This document shows, in pieces, positions 5,014 to 27,837 of a DNA stretch of 27,837 bases. A program made the translations under genes and the position numbers. The stretch comes from a virus. Location: the IMG/VR virus record IMGVR_UViG_3300020055_000120, positions 1-27,837 of that record. The stretch is one strand, 5' to 3'. The number at the start of each line of letters is the position of its first letter. The stretch's first letter is position 1. The notes beneath the pieces were generated by a model, which did no database searches, had not been told where the DNA came from, and worked only from the letters and a program-made list of their open reading frames with translations.

Positions 5014-5180
5014 TGCCTCGCAAACATTACGATGTTTTCAAGCACAGGGTGCGGACGAAGTTGCCGAAGCGCATTCGTTATGCAACGGTGTGTCGTAGGT
5101 GTAAAAAAGCGACAACCCAATCCGATAGGTGCTTAACATGTCAAATTGATTTCGCAACATGGTGGGGGCGAGCGTATTGA
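5013..5180 (+). CDS. Small zinc-ribbon protein (55 aa)
   Basis: A short gene that fills the gap between its neighbours. ATG 5013 overlaps the upstream TGA by one base (TGATG), preceded by AAGGAGAAG as a strong ribosome binding site. The protein is basic at the N-terminus and contains C27-x2-C30 and C40-x2-C43 (VCRRCKK and RCLTCQ), the four-cysteine pattern of a zinc ribbon. It ends in TWWGRAY. Small zinc ribbons bind nucleic acid or stabilise protein contacts; the role here is unknown. Its 3' end overlaps the next gene if that gene starts at 5159. Confidence 0.8.
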   Translation: MPRKHYDVFKHRVRTKLPKRIRYATVCRRCKKATTQSDRCLTCQIDFATWWGRAY

Positions 5181-6568
5181 TTGATTTGTCGGACTCCAAT
5201 TTGTTCAGCGACAATCCGTTGTTGAAGAATGTCATTGAGGGTCCGACATTTGGTGATGCACCCATGCCTGTGTCTCAAGGGCAGGGTGAAGCCAACGCAA
5301 ACCCTACACCTCCGCGCCCTAACGAAGTAGAGGAAGAAGAAAAAAAGAAAGAGATGGCGCGGGAAGTTGCTCAACAACTCAAGCGTTCTCTTCCCGACGG
5401 CGGATGGTTTCAGTCCATGTTTGGTCGCGGTGCTGGGGATTTGGTGAAAGACCTCCGCATGGCGCGGCGCGAAAACAAAGACATGCGTGAAGCCATTGAC
5501 CATGCGATTGATGCTATACGCATTGCAAAAAAACAGGAAGTAGAGGCTACACTTCAATCAATTGATTGGATTGCAAAGCACGAATCTACTGTTCGGAACT
5601 TAGGGGTAAGCGAACGCGATTTAATCGCACTTCGCAAACACGGTCAAACGCGCGAATACGCACTTCGTCGCGCCTGTGTGCAATGGGAAAAAGCCAACGA
5701 CACCATCAGCAAGTTGCTCTTAATTGATGGTGACTTTAACGAAGAGCAACGGCAGATGTGGGTTGACGCGCAACAACTGAAAAAGAATGCAAAAAAGGAG
5801 TGGCGAAACAGTCTGCATTCGGTTGACAATATCAAAAAGACCGATGCGATTTTTTTGACAAAAGCCGCGACGGTGCTTGAAGAACGCGGACCATTACCTG
5901 CGAGTGAAGTTTTTGTGAGCATGGAAAACACCAAGCATCTTTCAATACCGCAACTGAGCGCACTTTTCAAAATGCATGGTGTGGAATACGATATTGAAAA
6001 GGTCGGCGCAGGGTGGGGTATTGTTCGTGACAACACCGTGATTTTCAAGGATGTGTGGGCGTATGCCGCTGGCTTCCTTGACGCTGATGGCTACATCACC
6101 ATCACCAAACGACTTGAGCCGCGCGCTGGTTTTATCGCAACAGGCGAGCGAGGGAAGTTGCATTGCGAACAATTGCACAAAGCCCTCGGCTGTGGTGTGT
6201 TACAAACCGATTTGAAAATCCATAAGAACAGCCGACGCACTCAACACCGTCTTCAATTTTATAGCGAAGACGACCTGCGCAAACTGATGAAAGGTATCCG
6301 ACCACACCTCCGCATGAAGAAGGGGCAAGCGGGTGCTGTGCTTGAATTGCTTGATTTGCGCGGTCGGAAAACTGACATTATCAAATCGCGTCGCGATGAA
6401 TTGTATCGCATCGTCAAATGGTTGAATTGGAAGGATGTTCCGGACAAGCGAGAAGAATTGCTTAAGGAGTGGAACATTGATGAGGCGGGAGTGCGTGCGA
6501 TGTTCAGTCGGGATGGTGAAACCCTTCGTCTCCTTGACGACGCTGACCGACTTGTGGAGATGATGTGA
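5159..6568 (+). CDS. Coiled-coil / winged-helix-like / LAGLIDADG-domain protein
   Basis: A 469-aa protein immediately upstream of the portal. Residues ~50-220 are helical and charged, including a probable coiled coil (ARRENKDMREAIDHAIDAI). Residues ~225-290 look like a winged helix (TKAATVLEERGPLPASEVF, LSIPQLSALFKMHGV). Residues ~300-415 begin with YAAGFLDADGYITI, the signature of a LAGLIDADG domain (GFLDADG at 305-311). Only one LAGLIDADG motif is visible, so activity would need a homodimer or the fold serves only for DNA binding. No intein splice residues or split host gene are seen. The start is uncertain: ATG 5159 overlaps the previous gene by 22 nt, while TTG 5177 has a GGGGG tract 10 nt upstream and overlaps its stop by TTGA. 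Confidence 0.85.
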   Translation: MVGASVLIDLSDSNLFSDNPLLKNVIEGPTFGDAPMPVSQGQGEANANPTPPRPNEVEEEEKKKEMAREVAQQLKRSLPDGGWFQSMFGRGAGDLVKDLRMARRENKDMREAIDHAIDAIRIAKKQEVEATLQSIDWIAKHESTVRNLGVSERDLIALRKHGQTREYALRRACVQWEKANDTISKLLLIDGDFNEEQRQMWVDAQQLKKNAKKEWRNSLHSVDNIKKTDAIFLTKAATVLEERGPLPASEVFVSMENTKHLSIPQLSALFKMHGVEYDIEKVGAGWGIVRDNTVIFKDVWAYAAGFLDADGYITITKRLEPRAGFIATGERGKLHCEQLHKALGCGVLQTDLKIHKNSRRTQHRLQFYSEDDLRKLMKGIRPHLRMKKGQAGAVLELLDLRGRKTDIIKSRRDELYRIVKWLNWKDVPDKREELLKEWNIDEAGVRAMFSRDGETLRLLDDADRLVEMM

Positions 6569-23162: not shown

Positions 23163-25103
23163 ATGGTATCAACAGTTTACAAAGGCGACTTATCCGAAGT
23201 CACATTCGGCAAAGAGTGCGGCATTGTTCTCGCGCATGGTTCGTTCGGCGGATTGGTATTTACAACCGACGCGGCGGGAACAGGCATCACATTTAGCGGT
23301 GCAACGGCGGGTTTCTTCTCAACCGGCTCACTTCTCCGCTACCCTGCCGGAATGCTCGTTGGCAGTCAACTTCGCGTCATCGGTGCTGGTAGTTTTACCG
23401 ACGATGACAATGCTACCAAAGGGCATGTTTACACCATCGTCGCGAACGAAGGAGCCACGCTCACGGTTTCTCCCGCGATGAAAGAAGTGTCTACTGCATC
23501 TACATCGGGTGATGAGTTGCTTATTGACACGGTAGGAACACCAACGATTGACACAGGCATGACTTACAACGCTCAAGCCGCCTTATCCGACGAGTCTGTT
23601 CTTACCGACCAATTTATCGGCCTCGCGGCGACCGTCTCACTCCCCGAAACGAAAGTGGAAGTGCGACGCTCGCACATCGTCGGTGTAGGCCGTGATGTTG
23701 TCATCCAAGAACCACAGCGATTCTCCAATGAGGGTGGGTCAATGGAAATGATGATGAACAGCGCGCGCTGGCTCTACTACTCGCTTGGTCGCGAGGTCAT
23801 TGATGTTCCCAGCACGCTGATGACCGACCCCAGCGGACACACCAAGAAAGACATCGCCGCGGGTGATACCTATGTTGCTTTCACAGGAACGATGACCGGA
23901 AAGCCGGACCCCGGTGATTACATCATTATCGCGGACGGCACAACGGTTGCCTTCCCAAAAGACACCCCTGCCGCCGTTTCCGGTGCAGTATGGGGTGCAG
24001 ATGGCACAGGCGTAGATATGGAGAATGTTGAACGAAACGAGATTCGTCAAGTGTTGTATGTTGACGAAACGCTCACCGAGCGCAGAATCCATGTTGACGA
24101 ACCATTCTATTTCAGTCACGCGCTTGGCAACTACACCATCAAGCGTTTGAAGTATGAAGCGACAAACACAACCAACGGTTCGCCGAACTTTGAAGTCGGC
24201 GCGGCCAACTACGGAACCATCACCAACCGACAGGAGCGTTTGCTCTTCTCCGGTGCTACACTCCCTTCTTTTGCGATTGAATCAAGCATTCGCACTCGTA
24301 ACACCGGTTCATACAACGCCAACACGACGGATGCATTGGCGAACGAAGCCGCACCCGGTTCGGCATCGGACAGCAAACAACTTACGCGCGTTTGGAAAGG
24401 ATGCAAAGTGAAGGACTTCTCACTCGCGGCTGACGCAGATGCAGAAGTCAAATTGAGCATCAACTTTGACGCGCTCTACTGCTACACCGACACCGGTCGT
24501 CTTGAGAACTCCGACAAAGGCGACCGCTACACCGCGCACCGCATGTTTGAGAACACCGCGAACTCCACAGTCAACCGCAAGAAGGCTGGCATCGCGCCCA
24601 ACACCGAGAAGCCATTCTTCTTCTACAACGGGCAAATCAGTTCGTTTGGCGTCAACATCGCGCAGGTCACAAACTTTGCTTTGAGCGGCAACAACAACAC
24701 CGAAGCCATCTACACGATTCGCGGCAACAGTCAAGCCGAAGACCGCAACACCGCTGGCGATTCGCTTGAGCAAATCCCCTTTGGTGGTTCGCGCAACGCC
24801 AACCTCATGATTGAAAAGACGATGGAATACGAATTGTCCATGACCGTCATCGCAAGTGACCCCTTGATATGGCACGAGTTCCGAACCAACCGAACGCATG
24901 AGTTCACCGAACCTATTACACTTACGCTGACAAAAGCCGGTAAAGGTTCAAACCGCGAAGAAGTCATCATCGTCGTTGACGACTACATCATTTCGGAGGC
25001 CCCTCTCCCTATCCCCGAAGACAAGGGTGTTATCAAGAGTGAGTTGAAAATCATGCCGAAACATGTGCGCGTGATTTCGCGCGATGCTTTCTTGCACATG
25101 TGA
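23163..25103 (+). CDS. Major tail (tube) protein
   Basis: A large beta-rich protein between the terminator candidate and the G/G-T chaperones, the standard place for the tail tube subunit. It is rich in Thr, Gly and Ala, with regular strand patterns (VYKGDLSEVTFGKECGIVLA, ITFSGATAGFF, YTIKRLKYEATNTT) and a C-terminal section with RTHEFTEPITLTLTKAGKG. At 646 aa it is about twice a typical tube protein; the segment around residues 250-320 (TMTGKPDPGDYIIIADGTTV) may be an inserted beta domain exposed on the tail. A major-tail function is strongly supported by context. No enzymatic motif is seen. Confidence 0.85.
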   Translation: MVSTVYKGDLSEVTFGKECGIVLAHGSFGGLVFTTDAAGTGITFSGATAGFFSTGSLLRYPAGMLVGSQLRVIGAGSFTDDDNATKGHVYTIVANEGATLTVSPAMKEVSTASTSGDELLIDTVGTPTIDTGMTYNAQAALSDESVLTDQFIGLAATVSLPETKVEVRRSHIVGVGRDVVIQEPQRFSNEGGSMEMMMNSARWLYYSLGREVIDVPSTLMTDPSGHTKKDIAAGDTYVAFTGTMTGKPDPGDYIIIADGTTVAFPKDTPAAVSGAVWGADGTGVDMENVERNEIRQVLYVDETLTERRIHVDEPFYFSHALGNYTIKRLKYEATNTTNGSPNFEVGAANYGTITNRQERLLFSGATLPSFAIESSIRTRNTGSYNANTTDALANEAAPGSASDSKQLTRVWKGCKVKDFSLAADADAEVKLSINFDALYCYTDTGRLENSDKGDRYTAHRMFENTANSTVNRKKAGIAPNTEKPFFFYNGQISSFGVNIAQVTNFALSGNNNTEAIYTIRGNSQAEDRNTAGDSLEQIPFGGSRNANLMIEKTMEYELSMTVIASDPLIWHEFRTNRTHEFTEPITLTLTKAGKGSNREEVIIVVDDYIISEAPLPIPEDKGVIKSELKIMPKHVRVISRDAFLHM

Positions 25104-25608: not shown

Positions 25609-25756
25609 TCCGATGGTTGATGCTTGGACAATTATTATCAAAGGCAACGGCTGTGACGAGTGCGGCAAAAGTGGTTGCCGCGCGAAGATGTGTTGCGATA
25701 ACTGCGGGAAGAACAAGTGTTCCGAATGCATGGAGAAGCAAGGCGGGTGTGCTTGA
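25604..25756 (+). CDS. Tiny Cys-rich protein with NPM-AW motif (50 aa)
   Basis: ATG 25604 lies after the repeated GAGGTGAACGAA leader. The protein begins MNPMVDAWTIIIKGNG, then carries nine cysteines (17, 20, 25, 30, 31, 34, 39, 42, 49) in CDECGKSGC, MCCDNCG and CSECMEKQ. This is a dense zinc-finger-like module that could hold two metal ions. It overlaps the next gene by TGATG. It shows the motif fused to a minimal zinc domain. Function unknown. Confidence 0.82.
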   Translation: MNPMVDAWTIIIKGNGCDECGKSGCRAKMCCDNCGKNKCSECMEKQGGCA

Positions 25757-26181
25757 TGAAGTCCGACATGCACATTGGAGGTAACCGCGCGTTGCGTATT
25801 CGTGCGGTTGCAGAAGGCGCATTCATCGCTGAACCCGTTGACGAAGTGTTCAATCCCGAAGCCGCCAAGACTGACGGCAACCCATTTCCCGAAGAACAGC
25901 AAACGGAAGAGCAACCCGTTGAAGTTGACGAACCCAATTACGAGTCCATGACCGTTGACGAACTCAAAGCCCTGCTACGGGCGCGAGGTCTACCGGTCAC
26001 AGGCACAAAGGCGGAACTCATTACCCGCCTTACCGAAGCCGATACCCCCTCCGAAGAGGCAGTTGAAGCCGAGGTCGTCGCTCCCTCCGAAGAGGCCGCG
26101 ACAAGTGATGAGGGAGTAAGTGATGACAATGCCGAAAATAGCGGACCCGATGAGCCTCTTGGTGAACAGCCAAGCGGTTGA
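25756..26181 (+). CDS. SAP-domain protein (141 aa)
   Basis: ATG 25756 overlaps the previous TGA. Residues ~62-95 (YESMTVDELKALLRARGLPV, GTKAELITRL) match a SAP domain, a helix-turn-helix-like DNA-binding module. The N-terminal part (MHIGGNRALRIRAVAEGAF) is probably a small beta unit. The regions flanking the SAP domain are acidic and Pro/Glu-rich, thus disordered. It sits between the tail tube and the tail chaperones, where virion DNA-binding would be unexpected; the SAP module may instead bind protein. The 3' 59 nt overlap the next gene. Confidence 0.85.
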   Translation: MKSDMHIGGNRALRIRAVAEGAFIAEPVDEVFNPEAAKTDGNPFPEEQQTEEQPVEVDEPNYESMTVDELKALLRARGLPVTGTKAELITRLTEADTPSEEAVEAEVVAPSEEAATSDEGVSDDNAENSGPDEPLGEQPSG

Positions 26182-26491
26182 GCATGAAATACGAGCAGAC
26201 GAAAACGACCCCGATGTGGTTGTAAAAGTGTGGGTGAAGGAACTTTCCTTCATGCAGTTGCAAGAAGCAATCAAAACTTTTGTCAACATCACCACCGAAG
26301 GTTCAGTTGACATTGACCTCGCGAACTATTGGAAATACATGTTCGCCGAGGCTATTGACAAAACTGAACCGCGTCTCACCATTCCGCAAATGTTGTCGCT
26401 ACGGCCATTCATCGCGAATCAAATCACCGCGTTGTTGCCTCAACCTCAAGACTTGCTGGCTAACCCTTTAGTGGATGGGGCGACCGAATAG
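26123..26491 (+). CDS. Tail assembly chaperone G-like protein
   Basis: ATG 26123 follows AGGGAG (26111-26116); ATG 26129 is an alternative. The product has 122 aa: an N-terminal strand pair (EIRADENDPDVVVKVWVKEL), then helices (FMQLQEAIKTFVNI, IDLANYWKYMFAEAID, LRPFIANQITALL), similar in layout to gpG-type tail chaperones. It lies directly before the -1 frame T extension and the tape measure gene. In lambda-like tails, G and G-T bind the tape measure and recruit tube subunits, and are absent from mature virions. Assignment rests on layout plus the frameshift signal. Confidence 0.85.
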   Translation: MTMPKIADPMSLLVNSQAVEHEIRADENDPDVVVKVWVKELSFMQLQEAIKTFVNITTEGSVDIDLANYWKYMFAEAIDKTEPRLTIPQMLSLRPFIANQITALLPQPQDLLANPLVDGATE

Positions 26492-26757
26492 AGGAAGCAT
26501 ATCAATTTCTCAAAAAACCGTCGCCCGACCTTGAATACGGTTTCAACGCGGCGGCATACTTTGTAGCCAAGCATTATGGAATCAGCATTCAACAAGTGTG
26601 GGATATGAGCATGAGCGCGTTTGAAACTTCGTTTATATGGGCGAACGCGGCTGAACGCGTCAAAGCCGACGAGTATGAAAAAGCGACCGATGGAGCAAAG
26701 AACAAGACACGCGTAGGCTCAACACACGGACCGATGCCGTTTAGCGAGGGATGGTGA
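26123..26757 (+). CDS. Tail assembly chaperone G-T fusion through -1 ribosomal frameshift
   Basis: The frame ending at TGA 26755-26757 opens only after a TAA at 26461-26463, has no usable start until ATG 26614, and begins exactly at the heptamer CCCTTTA (26464-26470). In the G frame this reads C CCT TTA, so both tRNAs can re-pair on CCC TTT. The fusion has 116 residues of G (to Leu encoded at 26468-26470) plus 95 residues of T starting SGWGDRIEEAYQFLKK, 211 in total. The T part is helical (EYGFNAAAYFVAKHYGI, MSMSAFETSFIWANAAERV). Exact start/stop coordinates are given as an envelope; the T part alone is 26470-26757. A clear stimulatory RNA structure is not obvious. Confidence 0.85.
26464..26470 (+). 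promoter_or_regulatory. -1 ribosomal frameshift slippery site CCCTTTA
   Basis: A perfect X XXY YYZ heptamer in the phase required by the G frame. It lies 7 codons before the G stop and at the first possible position of the open -1 frame. Confidence 0.85.
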
Positions 26758-26758
26758 A

Positions 26759-27837
26759 ATGGCCGAAGACATTGATGCAGTCAACGCGAAACTTGACGGG
26801 CTAATCGCTACTCTTGAAAAAGCAGGTCACATCAGTTCTCAAAGTTCAAAAAAGTTCGGCCTTGTTGAAAAAAATCTCGGAAAATGGAAAAGCACAATCA
26901 AAAACTCACCGATTGGAAAAATGGTTAAATCAATGCAGACATGGGGCAAAGCGACAAAAAATGTCATCAAAATCACAGGCCAAAATGTAACCATGAGCGA
27001 TACCCAAAAGAAAGAACATCGCAAAGGTATGACGGTGATGCAAAAACTTGTTGCCGCCACCATCGCGCATGGTGTCGCGCAAAAAATAAGCAATAAAGTT
27101 CTTCAAACCGCTAACAACCGTTTTACGCGTCTAATGACAACGGCGTTTTCGTTGGTGAGTATTTTCCTCATCGTTGGATTTGCGCTGGCCGCATTGTCCA
27201 TTGCCTTTGAGGGCGCAAACAGTCCGGTCCTCAAGTTTACAGAAGACATGGGACCGTTGCACGACGCAATGCAGGGGTTGTTAATCGTCATCACAGGTGA
27301 AGGTGATGAAGGCGGTTTAGCGTCTATGCTTGATGTCCTCGCGGCGGCATTTGTGACCGCGGGTATATCCTCCCTTGTTCTTGGAGGGACCGTTGGTGTT
27401 ATTGTCGGAGCCATCGTCCTTGCAGTAGGTGCGGCGCGCATATTCTATAACGAGTTTGATAATGTTTACGCGGCTATTGGTGTAGGTATTGGTGTCTTTG
27501 TGACACTCATCGGAACACTCATGATGGTTAAAAAAGTGTTTGCGTTGATGAAAGCAGGTAGTGCTATCGCTATCAAAGGCACAGCAGGTGCGGTAGTTGC
27601 GGGTATCGGTCTTGTCATCGCTGGTGTTGCTGGACTCGTAGCGTTTGCGATGGGTGCTGGTGAAGGCATCAAAGGTGTTTTTCTTGGTATCATCAGCGCG
27701 CTTCTTGTGTTTGTTGGTCTTTTCATCGCAGGTGTAGGTCTTCCAATTGCCGCTGTTATCGCTCTTGTGTTGTTTTTGGTTGCAACCGTCATTCGTTATC
27801 GCGATGAGATTTTAGCGGGTCTTTCTTTTGCATTCAA
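26759..27837 (+). CDS. Tape measure protein, N-terminal part (truncated by window end)
   Basis: The frame opens at ATG 26759, 1 nt after the T stop with GGTGAA upstream, and runs off the right edge; 359 codons are visible. The N-terminal ~120 residues are charged and helical (DAVNAKLDGLIATLEKAG). From ~residue 124 there are six or more long hydrophobic segments (AFSLVSIFLIVGFALAAL, GGTVGVIVGAIVLAVGAA, LLVFVGLFIAGVG), typical of tape measure proteins, which fix tail length and are thought to enter the cell membrane during infection. The location after G/G-T is diagnostic. The true length and the C-terminal domains cannot be seen. Confidence 0.9.
   Translation, partial: MAEDIDAVNAKLDGLIATLEKAGHISSQSSKKFGLVEKNLGKWKSTIKNSPIGKMVKSMQTWGKATKNVIKITGQNVTMSDTQKKEHRKGMTVMQKLVAATIAHGVAQKISNKVLQTANNRFTRLMTTAFSLVSIFLIVGFALAALSIAFEGANSPVLKFTEDMGPLHDAMQGLLIVITGEGDEGGLASMLDVLAAAFVTAGISSLVLGGTVGVIVGAIVLAVGAARIFYNEFDNVYAAIGVGIGVFVTLIGTLMMVKKVFALMKAGSAIAIKGTAGAVVAGIGLVIAGVAGLVAFAMGAGEGIKGVFLGIISALLVFVGLFIAGVGLPIAAVIALVLFLVATVIRYRDEILAGLSFAF

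Follow-up and report, generated by a model that had tools for sequence, protein, structure and literature searches.

The two overlapping ORFs G and T are best read, by far, as a programmed −1 ribosomal frameshift of the phage lambda type, in which a short product G and a longer fusion G-T would be made, and we hold this reading with high confidence. The window, that is, the whole stretch of DNA analyzed here, comprises 27,837 bases of a viral record and carries tailed-virus structural genes. The frameshift, which the earlier note had proposed from the letters of the window, is supported by a conserved slippery heptamer, a conserved −1 ORF, a switch in the phase of substitutions at the heptamer and a fold of G that resembles that of a chaperone.

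An In-Phase Heptamer at the G/T Overlap

ORF G, the tail assembly chaperone, spans positions 26120–26491 on the plus strand, its start being uncertain (GTG at 26120, ATG at 26123 or ATG at 26129). ORF T, which is expected to form the C-terminal portion of G-T, occupies the −1 frame of the same strand (26464–26757) and is open from 26464 to a TGA at 26755–26757; the two ORFs overlap by 28 bases. At the 5′ end of the overlap is the heptamer C CCT TTA (26464–26470, plus strand), which has the X XXY YYZ phase that had been claimed for it, the codons of G being AAC CCT TTA. The 0-frame stop of G, a TAG at 26489–26491 (plus strand), is at +28 counted from the heptamer start in 25/25 close rows, and the ATA codon of the T frame that supplies this stop is mostly kept (same codon in 0.95 versus 0.62 expected). 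In the window a −1-frame TAA lies directly 5′ of the heptamer (26461–26463, plus strand), and here the −1 frame does open at the heptamer as the earlier note had it; as a general feature this did not stand, the stop being present in only nine of the 25 close rows.

A search of both strands of the window gave a single CCCTTTA. In-phase X XXY YYZ sites were found 31 times per 6797 codon positions of the 11 main ORFs, and we estimate that one such site would fall in a 28-base overlap by chance in about 3–4% of cases. The heptamer in the overlap is therefore not rare enough by itself, and it is its conservation that decides. No tRNA genes were found in the window.

The Junction Is Conserved among Relatives

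The first searches yielded 14 T loci and 21 G loci on 24 contigs, some of which were found from both sides, and the junction reads CCCTTTAG in all 35 loci. A profile search then gave 97 relatives of G; we analyzed the best 80 of them, which all lie on separate contigs (the T loci L142–L151 were left out). In every one of these best 80 of 97 a −1 ORF extends for at least 80 codons beyond the G stop, and in none does a +1 ORF reach that length. A single continuous frame, which would have spoken against the frameshift, occurred in 0/80 relatives. Nothing was found in favor of an error in sequencing or assembly, or of decay of the gene; the break is identical in 80/80 contigs, which leaves this explanation a negligible probability.

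Alignment of the heptamer in related genomes bore out its conservation, as C CCT TTA or C CCT TTG is present at the junction in 53 of the best 80 contigs. These comprise CCCTTTA with the G stop at +28 (27/80), CCCTTTG with the stop at +28 (18/80) and CCCTTTG with the stop at +10, directly after the heptamer (8/80). Other in-phase heptamers were observed in 21/80 contigs (GGGTTTT in 16, GGGGGGG in five), and the remaining six are without one. In L113, L116, L117, L120, L121 and L136 the −1 arrangement is kept without a classical heptamer, and a quartet U UUU or G GGG was seen by eye. When the contigs were clustered at 90%, C CCT TTR was found in 34 of 47 clusters (18 with CCCTTTA and the stop at +28, 11 with CCCTTTG at +28 and five with CCCTTTG at +10).

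In a tree of 51 hand-picked rows of the 80, the rows that lack C CCT TTR (14) form one clade, E (support 100/100), and the CCCTTTA label requires three gains or losses. CCCTTT is kept in 37/37 tree rows outside clade E, with TTR as the Leu codon in each, and the wobble base 5′ of CCT is thus C in every one of them. No synonymous change was seen in the codons CCC and TTT (32 sequences), and the peptide PFSGW is invariant in 17/17 close rows.

Slippage of the transcribing polymerase on the C and T runs could likewise give mixed frames, since it is also repeat-based and also leads to a −1-type product. The runs here are just three bases long, however, whereas known sites of transcriptional slippage have longer single-base runs. 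Such stuttering also needs no codon phase, whereas one phase was found in the 53 of 80 contigs, a figure for which in-phase sites alone were counted. We consider transcriptional slippage very improbable.

Coding Changes Frame at the Heptamer

The phase of substitutions was analyzed in 16 rows of group A, with L024 and L029 left out for indels. Mismatches in these 16 rows peak at codon position 3 of G as far as the heptamer, and 3′ of the heptamer they peak at codon position 3 of T, already at +28 to +120. At bases 0–8, the first two positions of the T codons carry no mismatches. Judged from this pattern of substitutions, T-frame coding is visible from +28, ahead of the first T start in the window.

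This bears directly on whether translation of T begins independently, by reinitiation or at an unusual start codon past the G stop, in which case there would be no fusion. In the window, the T frame has no ATG, GTG or TTG before a GTG at +132, and so the earlier remark that T lacks an early start holds for the window; it does not hold for relatives at large, as in 7/25 close rows a start codon is present in the T frame within 50 bases of the heptamer, where T begins, and one row (L019) has an upstream TTG. These seven rows are what an independent start has in its favor. Against it, coding in the T frame is already visible in the window before any start that this frame contains, PFSGW is invariant in all of the close rows scored for it, and the conservation of the heptamer would be left without a reason. 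An independent start of T is very improbable, and the −1 frameshift that joins G to T remains the preferred reading.

G Resembles a Tail Assembly Chaperone

Sequence profiles of the G family gave weak matches to phrog_1749 (best 0.00079) and PF16459 (best 0.0018), in 11/17 members each, and PF16459 was matched in 5/20 of a wider G set. The G of the window itself gave an E-value of 0.2 with phrog_1749 and matched no Pfam family. Its AlphaFold2 model (mean pLDDT 86.5) matched in BFVD an unnamed viral protein (E 5.8e-9, TM 0.85) and, from Haloarcula hispanica tailed virus 2, the tail assembly chaperone (E 5.0e-6). The model also aligns (VIA) with yqbN at Z 6.4 and with the HK97 chaperone at Z 4.5; both values are under 8 and may reflect a common arrangement or middling noise. 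A Foldseek search of the model against the PDB gave no match at E 0.001. Overall, the predicted structure of G resembles the fold of a tail assembly chaperone.

T matched no named family, its only matches being weak ones to PHROGs of unknown function, and it was modelled as a helical protein (mean pLDDT 80.7). Neither G nor T gave a tblastn match at E 1 in the phage collection. Near the end of T, the codons CGC GTA (Arg-Val, 26710–26715) show no synonymous change across 18 group A rows. GCGTAG is seen again in four rows of group B, and the site in the window lies nearly 50 bases 5′ of the next gene.

The next gene (26759–27837, plus strand), which runs off the window, is presumed to encode the tape measure and is named so by position, a search for families having given no convincing match. 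In six relatives a long ORF of 567–593 aa begins 2 to 11 bases past T. On the other side of G, the ORF at 23163–25103 (plus strand) is presumed to encode the tail tube protein, with a match to PF18906 (E 0.0049, 17 bits) that is below the curated cut-off of 27. Three further ORFs of the window have features of their own. The ORF at 25717–26181, which overlaps the start of G, has a SAP domain (PF02037, E 1e-16). The ORF at 5159–6568 includes the stretch AYAAGFLDADGYI, which was read by eye and which we take to be a LAGLIDADG-like motif, and it has no Pfam match. A run of more than 10 glutamines is found in the ORF at 259–2040.

How Ribosomes May Slip

In the mechanism that we propose, most ribosomes would read G and stop at 26489–26491, producing the short chaperone. 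In a minority, the Pro and Leu tRNAs on CCU UUA would slip back one base to CCC UUU, and these ribosomes would continue in T to form G-T, with the predicted junction ...N-P-L-S-G-W.... By analogy with phage lambda, G may coat the tape measure and G-T may also recruit tube subunits, and the slip rate would fix the ratio of G to G-T. UUA represents 7.5% of 535 Leu codons, and this rare codon in the A site, along with an RNA structure past a 7-base spacer, may aid the pause.

A variant within this explanation is that the Pro tRNA alone slips, from CCU to CCC, after which UUU would be read as Phe and the junction would be N-P-F-S. It is consistent with the T frame reading PF at all 53 C CCT TTR sites and with the six distant relatives in which only a single-codon quartet was seen by eye. 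On the other hand, the Leu codon is TTR in every tree row outside clade E, as a slip by two tRNAs requires, although a constraint on the amino acid could also explain this. We think the Pro-only slip unlikely, giving it a minor share of the frameshift explanation, and favor the slip of both tRNAs.

A Possible Downstream RNA Stimulator

In many rows of group A, the group of the window, the 60 bases 3′ of the heptamer can form an outer helix around an inner hairpin, with a spacer of ~7 bases. In the window the arms of the candidate outer helix are GGGCGAC (26478–26484), which follows the heptamer after a 7-base spacer, and GTCGCCC (26520–26526), and those of the candidate inner helix are GAGGAA (26491–26496) and TTTCTC (26506–26511), all on the plus strand. 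All 18 group A rows, which are related and not independent, fold better in this region than the mean of their own synonymous recodings (mean z −1.8), 10 of the 18 at 0.05 or below. Other stretches of T in group A have z between −0.55 and +0.62. Stretches of G fold alike, with a mean z of −2.08 at −240 to −180 (18/18 negative) and of −1.57 and −1.11 nearby.

When the proposed pairs were placed on the alignment, 75.6% of cells could pair, versus 71.0% in shuffles and 31–50% when the pairs were slid, and the covariation score of the proposed structure was greater than in all 500 shuffles. Pairs changed on both sides showed no excess over shuffles (213/500 were as high), and RNAalifold returned no consensus structure for group A, gapless or aligned, or for group B, gapless. 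In group B the mean z was −1.1 (14 rows), with little or no structure in 7/14 (z above −0.6). An upstream stimulator resembling a Shine-Dalgarno sequence was looked for by eye only, and none seemed conserved.

In group C (L068–L075) the 0-frame stop is directly 3′ of the heptamer. A five-pair hairpin with a GAAA or GAGA loop is found there six bases past the heptamer (five rows used of eight contigs). Within G itself, a hairpin GTGAAGGA-loop-TCCTTCAT at 26231–26256 folds in 17/18 group A rows and has two synonymous compensatory double changes (L021 and L022); among 17 rows of other groups, a weaker form occurs in L065 and L067.

Support for a downstream RNA structure as a stimulator is mixed, and we regard it as possible. 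A more specific proposal is that in uncultured marine archaea the ribosomes slip at C CCU UUR, where the A-site codon is eukaryote-like, and are helped by a downstream RNA structure that differs by clade, namely two helices in the group of the window and a GNRA hairpin in another group. We would give this proposal slightly less than even weight. If this is true, Archaea would have a −1 frameshift system stimulated by RNA structure, and its natural variants could be compared.

A Probable Archaeal Virus

The MCP and the portal each match 11 records of the phage collection, and in both cases all 11 are archaeal viruses, several of them duplicates. TerL was considered as an indicator of host and set aside; its best matches are Bacteroides phages, with haloviruses lower. 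Among 14 long relatives chosen, a chaperonin was found in 10 and PolB in eight. The chaperonins were typed in four of the 10 relatives, and all were best as thermosome, one of them above the curated cut-off. In the contig of L111 (G010), the PolB match at 27584–28504 is broken by eight stop codons.

According to PMC5332604, all 18 clade 1 genomes of marine group II viruses have thermosome genes, and other clades have GroEL. PMC8651126 places the MCPs of Druskaviridae among MCPs from marine viruses of archaea, magroviruses and others. The MCP and portal matches, together with the thermosome and PolB genes of the relatives and the published grouping of MCPs, thus point to a magrovirus-like virus of Poseidoniales as the likely source, other marine archaea being possible hosts; that the host is archaeal is most likely. 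The only cellular match, L152, carries the same heptamer and is in a MAG called Cytophagaceae. We take it to be a misbinned viral contig, as the MCP and portal match archaeal viruses only.

Relation to Known Frameshift Systems

Programmed frameshifting in Archaea is known from very few cases, according to PMC8211752. A −1 chaperone frameshift has already been reported for four haloarchaeal viruses, and the records of HVTV-1, HCTV-5 and HCTV-1 agree with this. In the literature that we searched, mostly excluding subscription papers, we found no report of a −1 frameshift in the present clade or of its site, nor one that linked a magrovirus with ribosomal frameshifting. What is new is this clade and the site C CCU UUR, and possibly a downstream RNA structure. 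Dozens of uncultured, probably archaeal viruses share one conserved site. Both this site and the position of the stop vary naturally among them, and there is a candidate stimulator, so that the causes of slippage by archaeal ribosomes become testable. For annotation, G and T in these viruses should be joined.

The likeness to phage lambda is in the arrangement, that is, two overlapping ORFs between a presumed tail tube gene and a presumed tape measure gene, with a −1 slip, close to where the first ORF ends, that would give a short and a long product. The slip site of lambda is G GGA AAG, whereas that here is C CCU UUA, and the host here is most likely archaeal. The magroviruses (order Magrovirales, viruses of Poseidoniales), set beside our viruses by description, are similar in that many of the long relatives have a chaperonin and PolB and in that the MCP is akin to that of haloviruses. 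The same heptamer, CCCUUUA, with a proposed downstream structure, was once proposed as the CP/RdRp site of giardiavirus, although that is a eukaryotic dsRNA virus with other genes; in PMC8230311, this site was unsupported in that paper's own strains. HVTV-1, HCTV-5 and HCTV-1 (Druskaviridae) have a related MCP and portal and a joined −1 chaperone CDS 5′ of the tape measure, but they have shift sites of their own, GGGAAAG, GGGAAAG and GGGAAAC, respectively.
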